Shown here piece after piece: positions 47,717 to 49,780 of a stretch of 64,000 nucleotides of DNA. Position 1 is the stretch's first letter; the number at the start of each line of letters is the position of its first letter. The stretch covers positions 434,001-498,000 of the forward strand of contig JACQEZ010000011.1 of the NCBI GenBank assembly GCA_016200325.1, given 5' to 3'. Origin of the DNA: Candidatus Manganitrophaceae bacterium. Its GTDB lineage: Bacteria; Nitrospirota; Nitrospiria; SBBL01; Manganitrophaceae. The notes under the pieces were generated by a model. That model worked only from the letters and a program-made list of their open reading frames with translations. It was not told where the DNA came from and ran no database searches. A program made the translations under genes and the position numbers.

Positions 47717-48036
47717 TCCTCTAAGAAACGCCGTCAAGAAAGGTGTTGATCGGCCGGATCGATCCCTTATCCCCGGCCTGTCTTAAAGCGCCTGGCGGTC
47801 GGGCTTAAAGAGACCGAGGGGTTTCACCCGCCGTTGGCCGAGCGTCCCAAGCGTGGCGGCGCTCGGTATTCTCCTCTCCGGGGAGCCGCGCGATGCCGGT
47901 CTAATCCCTCAATATTTTTTTGATGGTTGTCGGAATGATTGACCTCAAGCTAACCGCCGCCCGTGCAGGCCGCACGTCGTCATGCCGCTGAAGCATTCCA
48001 TCGACCCGGCGCATTCGTCGTCCCCGAAGCGCCCTC

Positions 48037-48073: not shown

Positions 48074-49780
48074 ATGCGCTACTATGCCCTCGCGACCGAC
48101 TATGATGGAACGCTTGCCACCGATGGCCGGGTGGACGAATCGACCTTGGACGCCCTCAAGCGGTTGCGGAACTCCGGCCGGCGGTTGATCCTCGTGACCG
48201 GCCGTGAATTAGAGGACCTCCTCCGCGCCTTTCCCCAGATCGACCTCTTTGAGCGGGTGGTGGCCGAGAACGGCGCCCTTCTCTATCGTCCCGCGACGCG
48301 CGAGACAAAACTGCTTGCCGCGCCCCCTCCGGAGCGGTTTGCCCAGACCCTTCGCGATCGCGGGGTGGCGCCCCTCTCCGTCGGACGGGTGGTCGTCGCG
48401 ACCTGGACGCCGCATGAAAAAAGGGTCCTCGATGTGATCCGCGAGCTCGGGCTCGAACTCCAGGTGATCTTCAACAAAGGGGCGGTGATGGTCCTCCCCT
48501 CCGGGGTGAACAAGGCGACCGGATTTGCCGCGGCCCTCGACGAACTCGGATTGTCGCCGCACAACGCGGTGGGTGTGGGCGATGCCGAGAACGACCACGC
48601 TTTTTTAAATCTCTGCGAGTGTTCGGTGGCGGTCGCCAATGCCCTTCCGGCGTTGAAGGAGCAGGCCGACTGGATCACTTCGGGAAGCCGCGGCGCGGGG
48701 GTGACGGAGCTGATCGACCGACTCCTCGCCTCCGACCTGGCGGAGCTGCCGCTGCAGCGGCACGAGGTTGTTCTCGGCCGCCGGGTCGATGAAGCGGAGG
48801 TTCGCCTCAAGCCGTATGGCGCCAGTGTGCTCATCGCCGGCACCTCGGGCGGCGGGAAATCGACCCTGGCGACCGGTTTTCTCGAACGGCTCTCGGAGCA
48901 GGGATACCAATTTTGCATTATCGATCCGGAAGGAGATTATCAGAACTTCGAGAGGGCCGTGGTGTTGGGGAATCCTTCCCGGGCGCCCACCGTGGAAGAG
49001 GCGACGCAGCTCCTTGAGAAGCCGAATCAGAATGCGGTGATCAATCTTTTGGGAGTCGCGCGGGAGAGTCGGCCTTCCTACTTTGAAGGGCTTCTCGCCG
49101 CGATCATGGCGTTGAGGGCCCGGACCGGCCGGCCCCATTGGATTGTCATCGACGAAACCCACCACCTTCTCCCCTCCAGTTGGGCCCCTGCCCTCCTGAC
49201 TGTTCCGAAGGAGCTCCAGGGATTTTTGCTGATCACCGTCCATCCGGACCATGTCGCGCCTGCTGTTCTTACCTCGGTCGATCTGGTCATCGCGATCGGA
49301 TCGACGCCCCAGGAGACCTTCCGCGCCTTCAGCGAGACGCTCGGGGAGCGGACGCCGTCAGTCCCCTCGGCGCCCCTTCAGCGGGGCGAGGCGATCGCCT
49401 GGTGGCGGCGGACGACGTCCGAGCCGTTCTGGTTCCGCAGCATCCCTCCCCGGATGGAGCGGCTCCGCCATCTTCGGAAATATGCCGAGGGGGAGCTTCC
49501 CCCCGACCGCAGCTTTTACTTCCGGGGACCGAACGGCAAGTTGAATCTGCGCGCCCAGAATCTGATCTTCTTTCTGCAGTTGGCGGAAGGGATCGACGAC
49601 GAGACCTGGCTTTATCACCTTCGACGGGGAGACTACTCGCGCTGGTTCCGCCAGATGATCAAGGATGATCAGCTCGCCGCCGATGCGGCGGGCGTTGAGG
49701 CCGCGGGCGACCTCACCGCAAAAGAGAGCCGCGCCCGCATTCGGGAGAAGGTCGAAGCGCGGTATACTCTCCCGGCATAG
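48074..49780 (+). CDS. HAD-IIB phosphatase fused to a HerA-like ATPase
   Basis: A 568-residue two-domain protein. Residues 1-225 are a Cof-type HAD phosphatase: DYDGTL at 9-14, VTGRELE near 41, GVGDAEND at 167-174. After a linker comes a P-loop ATPase of the HerA/DUF87 type: Walker A GTSGGGKST at 256-264, DPEGDY at 284-289, Walker B WIVIDETHH with Asp360/Glu361. The last 130 residues form a helical domain (WLYHLRRGDYSRWFRQMI). I know no defined role for such a fusion. ATG 48074 is chosen over the upstream TTG. Confidence 0.85.
   Translation: MRYYALATDYDGTLATDGRVDESTLDALKRLRNSGRRLILVTGRELEDLLRAFPQIDLFERVVAENGALLYRPATRETKLLAAPPPERFAQTLRDRGVAPLSVGRVVVATWTPHEKRVLDVIRELGLELQVIFNKGAVMVLPSGVNKATGFAAALDELGLSPHNAVGVGDAENDHAFLNLCECSVAVANALPALKEQADWITSGSRGAGVTELIDRLLASDLAELPLQRHEVVLGRRVDEAEVRLKPYGASVLIAGTSGGGKSTLATGFLERLSEQGYQFCIIDPEGDYQNFERAVVLGNPSRAPTVEEATQLLEKPNQNAVINLLGVARESRPSYFEGLLAAIMALRARTGRPHWIVIDETHHLLPSSWAPALLTVPKELQGFLLITVHPDHVAPAVLTSVDLVIAIGSTPQETFRAFSETLGERTPSVPSAPLQRGEAIAWWRRTTSEPFWFRSIPPRMERLRHLRKYAEGELPPDRSFYFRGPNGKLNLRAQNLIFFLQLAEGIDDETWLYHLRRGDYSRWFRQMIKDDQLAADAAGVEAAGDLTAKESRARIREKVEARYTLPA

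Follow-up and report, generated by a model that had tools for sequence, protein, structure and literature searches.

A conserved fusion of a HAD-IIB phosphatase, a HerA-fold ATPase core and a DUF5752/OrfY-like tail in Candidatus Manganitrophaceae

Introduction

Phosphatases of the HAD-IIB class have a capped fold that usually accepts small substrates. Proteins of the HerA/FtsK superfamily are marked by a conserved polar sensor, mostly Gln, together with a conserved arginine finger (third motif) (PMC11703096). A third domain, DUF5752, on which the literature searched contained no paper, is shared with OrfY and comprises two repeats over ~200 aa. OrfY, which we take to be a protein of Thermoproteus tenax, was labelled "transcription factor" by the depositors of its structure (PDB 4cso). 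In addition, a trehalose synthase complex, TPSP/GT/MSC, has been described for T. tenax (PMC3634074).

Here, we followed up a sequence-only reading of one gene in a window of 64,000 nucleotides (the whole stretch of DNA that was analysed; contig JACQEZ010000011.1, positions 434,001 to 498,000) from the 4.2 Mb assembly of a Candidatus Manganitrophaceae bacterium. The gene encodes a protein in which a HAD-IIB phosphatase, a HerA-fold ATPase core and a DUF5752/OrfY-like tail are joined in a single chain. This combination appears never to have been studied; no description of the fusion was found in the literature searched, and one could still exist elsewhere.

Results

The three-part reading frame is real and conserved

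The gene forms a single open frame on the forward strand (Table 1). An earlier possible start, GTG at 47963, lies in the same frame as the 568-aa ORF, and 90% or more of 49 homologues retain M1 of the 568-aa form. Because the protein has a Pfam Hydrolase_3 match as well as full-length homologues of 52-83% identity in many phyla, a chance origin is ruled out and the three-part ORF is confirmed as real and conserved. The predicted model of the monomer is confident (mean pLDDT 90.5) and, together with structure matches, supports both the HAD-IIB and the HerA-fold P-loop assignment. Of what the sequence-only reading had foreseen for domain search and structure prediction past residue 225, a HerA-fold core emerged as expected, and a tail without any match did not. 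A simple consensus search returned no promoters or terminators around the gene.

Table 1 Features of the fusion gene (coordinates of the window).
Feature	Coordinates	Strand	Basis
Entire 568-aa ORF encoding HAD-IIB phosphatase, HerA-fold ATPase core and DUF5752/OrfY-like tail; start codon ATG at 48074, stop at 49780	48074..49780	+	
HAD-IIB phosphatase domain, residues 1-225, catalytic residues present	48074..48748	+	Pfam, TIGR01484, Z 27.5 to 1wr8, residue census
HerA-fold P-loop ATPase core, residues 226-462	48749..49459	+	PF01935 above cut-off; Z 21.4 (9x1m), 20.9 (4d2i)
Walker A GTSGGGKS, residues 256-263	48839..48862	+	sequence, census
DPEGDY, residues 284-289; D284, E286, D288 invariant	48923..48940	+	sequence, census
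Walker B WIVIDE, residues 356-361	49139..49156	+	sequence, census
TVHP, residues 388-391, at the site of the HerA (T/S)QxP sensor motif; V389 at the HerA Gln position	49235..49246	+	5 HerA chains, census
Tail, residues 463-568, DUF5752/OrfY-like half domain, RH...Y...F.F...H...D(Y/F)S.W	49460..49777	+	profile comparisons

The nearest named relatives are Candidatus Manganitrophaceae/Nitrospirae MAGs (82-83% identity), and the complete architecture was found in most of the best 80 of 356 candidate stretches encoding relatives. The three parts stay joined at 52-83% identity across ~13 phyla in a main subfamily, as compared to 32-38% identity to the query in a second one. A residue census was drawn up from 88 main-subfamily rows, one of which duplicates the query, and 5 second-subfamily rows. 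Mean pairwise identity was highest in the HAD part (0.63) and the tail (0.60), and lowest in the HerA core (0.45). Within its phylum the fusion is patchy (16 of 148 genomes), and copies are also carried on megaplasmids; no full-length phage copy was found. In a tree of ~13 phylum-level groups, the Cyanobacteria form one group and several others do not, and horizontal transfer of the fusion is suggested by these sequences. In the window it is an ordinary chromosomal gene, since the flanking genes are also conserved in the three same-genus genomes examined (G002, G004 and G005). The copy in G004 contains three in-frame TGA codons and frame breaks, reflecting either a pseudogene or assembly errors.

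The N-terminal part is a HAD-IIB phosphatase domain

Motifs I-IV of HAD-IIB (DxDGT, T/S, K and GDxxND) are all present (D9xD11GT13, T42, R44, K147 and GD170xxND174), and the catalytic residues are invariant or nearly so across the 93 census rows. In line with this, the HAD part matched Pfam Hydrolase_3/PF08282 (E 1.4e-26/7e-28) and passed the HAD-SF-IIB model TIGR01484 (91.9 bits versus a curated cut-off of 41.8), so that the complete HAD motifs first noted in residues 1-225 are borne out. The label "Cof-type" given at the same time has to be dropped, as TIGR00099 reached 86.4 bits against a cut-off of 137. Indeed, every specific NCBIfam equivalog among the matches listed scored under its cut-off. 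These include the archaeal phosphoglycolate-phosphatase models, which are nearest by score (TIGR01487, 93.5 versus 122.75 bits; PRK01158, 93.3 versus 198 bits), and likewise the sucrose-phosphatase models.

Comparing the predicted HAD structure with solved ones showed that its nearest folds are capped small-molecule phosphatases, with PH1421 (1wr8) as the best match (Z 27.5 over 222 residues, 30% identity). A relative on a Nostoc plasmid (L106:5001-5666) consists of the HAD part alone at 70% identity, and no remnants of ATPase or tail were found there by tblastn, which suggests that the phosphatase is able to stand alone. A HAD-only copy in L014, by contrast, lies at a contig end and is no truncated gene.

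The HerA-fold core lacks residues used by DNA motors

That the P-loop domain groups with HerA/DUF87, as had been proposed, is upheld by both sequence and fold: DUF87 was found in 48 of 49 family members, and when the core was folded alone, all top-ranked matches were HerA proteins, led by TkHerA (9x1m) and SsoHerA (4d2i). The Walker A, DPEGDY and Walker B motifs reported previously are present (G256...GK262S263, 284-289 and D360E361) and kept across the census rows, the P-loop Gly, Lys and Asp being invariant or nearly so in both subfamilies. Profile matches to ABC transporters were dismissed as generic P-loop matches.

The core differs from HerA in several respects. The N-terminal HAS barrel is missing, with the HAD domain in its place and the HerA matches starting past the N-terminal part of HerA. 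Because the 223 aligned core residues stretch over ~400 HerA residues, the inserted helix bundle is absent as well. The Gln of (T/S)QxP occurs in all five solved HerA chains that were aligned, whereas this position is V, I, L or M in 88 of 88 main-subfamily rows and Y in all five rows of the second subfamily; the YjgR-like HerA protein of the same genome retains TQNP. The EGRK stretch of several HerA chains falls into a gap of the fusion alignment, and a Gly stands where most of the five chains carry Arg. Within residues 364-462 of the main subfamily, none of the positions reaches 80% conservation as Arg or Lys, and the second subfamily retains an Arg at the position of G409. R333, which is invariant in both subfamilies, or the near-invariant R353 could stand in for the lost HerA arginine. 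Hence, neither the polar sensor nor the conserved arginine finger of the HerA/FtsK superfamily was found in the fusion core.

Since D284 and both Walker motifs are retained in full, the core is predicted to be likely to bind nucleotide and possibly to hydrolyse it, and true ATP hydrolysis with mechanical work may still take place. DNA pumping is doubtful, because the HAS barrel, the helix-bundle insert, the sensor Gln and the conserved Arg are all missing, and for this reason the ATP-driven remodelling step put forward earlier, taken as one on DNA, finds no support in that form. Phosphate removal may still be coupled to a step that depends on nucleotide.

A true HerA-type motor would form a hexamer on DNA, with the HAD domain, replacing the HAS barrel, dephosphorylating DNA ends or nucleotides in repair or anti-phage defence. 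Such a motor would fit the intact Walker motifs, the strong HerA fold with its best Z score (21.4) to a DNA-bound HerA-NurA complex, the patchy distribution with megaplasmid copies, and the result against the PADLOC defence library, where residues 232-426 of the ATPase scored best with mad8 (mads_8) from a defence system (E 2.2e-12). However, the four losses in the core and the general preference of capped HAD-IIB folds for small substrates stand against it. In addition, no nuclease or defence gene recurs beside the fusion at 80 surveyed loci, in agreement with the earlier remark that no partner nuclease is adjacent. We therefore regard a DNA motor as unlikely.

The tail is related to DUF5752 and OrfY

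The C-terminal residues had been described as matching no known domain. For the query alone the match of the ~100-105-residue tail to DUF5752 is indeed weak (E 0.13); through its relatives, however, the last ~105 residues do find a match. With E values no higher than 0.01, 7 of 49 members hit DUF5752 (best E 4.9e-7), hhalign of the tail against DUF5752 gave 95.8% (E 7.8e-9), and the tail profile matched a single sequence in the PDB, OrfY 4cso (E 1.3e-8), on both OrfY halves. By these profile comparisons, the tail is a half-length relative of DUF5752, corresponding to one half only of the two-repeat domain. Stand-alone DUF5752 genes lie directly upstream of a trehalose synthase gene, TreT or TreS, in all 15 Nitrospirota loci examined (L107-L121), and some of these loci also carry MscS or trehalose-phosphatase alongside. 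In L118 and L120, DUF5752 is fused to a membrane/MscS-like part and adjoined by a trehalose-phosphatase.

Gene neighbourhoods reveal no conserved partner

Clustering of neighbours over the 80 loci yielded generic families only and no conserved operon partner. Around the fusion in the window (34732-56743), inspection of translations by eye suggested genes for an ABC transporter, a YihY-like membrane protein, Hsp20, a DUF421-like protein and glutathione peroxidase. Stress genes of one locus were rejected as a conserved context because they do not recur at other loci. In three related Nitrospira-class genomes, the second-subfamily fusion lies between hypF and hypD/hypE in a hydrogenase cluster (L150:7114-13868, L151:7372-14086, L160:6886-13536).

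Trehalose-related genes were seen near several copies. In a Deltaproteobacteria MAG (L067:4010-9698), the fusion is preceded directly, on the same strand, by treZ and then a glycogen-debranching gene; in two Nitrospira-class genomes (L154, L155) it lies downstream of TreZ, an archaeal-type debranching enzyme, Ku and an FAD oxidoreductase; and OtsA lies near it on Aminobacter plasmids. In Caballeronia and Aminobacter, the glycosyltransferases adjoining the fusion are generic GT4 and were rejected as TreT. With queries partly drawn from family loci, trehalose/glycogen-debranching genes were found at 4 loci in 1.09 Mb of 55 control windows and at 7 fusion loci (~5 lineages) in 1.30 Mb, that is, without enrichment. 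Because the control windows were equally dense, a trehalose context was rejected and these neighbours are not counted as evidence. No trehalose operon surrounds the fusion in the window, and a 734-aa frame of the genome already includes trehalose-phosphate synthase.

These observations bear on the view that the protein is a phosphatase of trehalose-6-phosphate or a related disaccharide phosphate, with the OrfY-like tail as a trehalose-pathway sensor. The homology of the tail to a domain of trehalose operons, the HAD-IIB nature of trehalose-phosphatases, one of which matches the model (6upb, Z 20.8), and the OtsA and treZ neighbours could be read in this way. Set against them are the higher score of PH1421, the lack of any T6PP model among the best 25 NCBIfam matches listed and the control windows, so that this substrate appears improbable; a trehalose-specific role would be drawn solely from the tail's relatives.

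A regulator, with a phosphatase that removes a signal metabolite and with nucleotide binding and the tail acting on transcription or stress responses, is very unlikely: the "transcription factor" label of OrfY and the stress-type genes noted descriptively in annotated plasmid neighbourhoods (among them Hsp20, Dps, universal stress protein and Mn catalase) would suit it, but this basis is a label and context, and the tail has half of OrfY's size.

Discussion

We favour, with a probability of roughly 45%, a small-metabolite phosphatase, most likely acting on a sugar phosphate, that a HerA-derived module and an OrfY-like tail regulate or assemble. In this protein, a soluble HAD-IIB phosphatase would remove phosphate from a small metabolite, presumably a sugar phosphate. 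The HerA-derived core would bind and perhaps slowly hydrolyse ATP, and may serve as a switch or scaffold instead of a DNA pump, while the tail might sense a ligand or bind a partner. Core and tail would thereby govern the activity or assembly of the phosphatase.

What was observed is that the three domains constantly co-occur, that the residues for HAD and P-loop catalysis are kept, that motor residues are lost and that the tail is homologous to DUF5752. The proximity of the HAD fold to small-molecule phosphatases, the stronger conservation of HAD part and tail, and the position of the tail's relatives upstream of TreT/TreS also point towards the favoured phosphatase, whereas the NCBIfam equivalogs under cut-off, the lack of trehalose/debranching enrichment and the trehalose-phosphate synthase frame already in the genome count against it. 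In a bolder version, the core would be a former DNA motor that gave up translocation and now binds nucleotide as a scaffold or switch controlling a metabolic phosphatase, with the OrfY-like part as sensor. This would make the fusion an ATP- and sugar-gated phosphatase assembly present in many phyla, which seems rather doubtful.

Among known systems, PH1421/TA0175-type HAD-IIB phosphatases (1wr8, 1kyt) share the HAD fold, a C2B-type cap and the catalytic residues with the HAD part; these enzymes are stand-alone, whereas the HAD part is fused, and the fusion scores under the phosphoglycolate-phosphatase cut-offs. The tail can be aligned to DUF5752 and to each half of OrfY but differs in being one half, in being fused to an enzyme and in having no trehalose synthase genes adjoining in the window; it offers a handle on this trehalose-linked domain. 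The T. tenax TPSP/GT/MSC complex (PMC3634074) likewise has a HAD-type phosphatase part, and MscS, glycosyltransferase and phosphatase genes adjoin Nitrospirota DUF5752; unlike the fusion, the complex is without a HerA module and has a GT20 fusion instead of an ATPase fusion. In contrast to MAD8, the fusion also has HAD and DUF5752-like parts, and no MADS system was recognised nearby.

With the HerA translocases (SsoHerA, TkHerA and HerA of Sir2/DUF4297 defence), the core has in common the RecA-like fold, Walker A and B and the acidic D ending strand 2; the fusion differs from them in being without the HAS barrel, the helix-bundle insert, the sensor Gln, the conserved Arg and a nuclease partner. 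The fusion is conserved and widespread and seems not to have been described before. It links a metabolic phosphatase to a core of the HerA type, and because this core has lost residues that motors use, the protein provides a direct test of non-DNA-moving uses of HerA cores.
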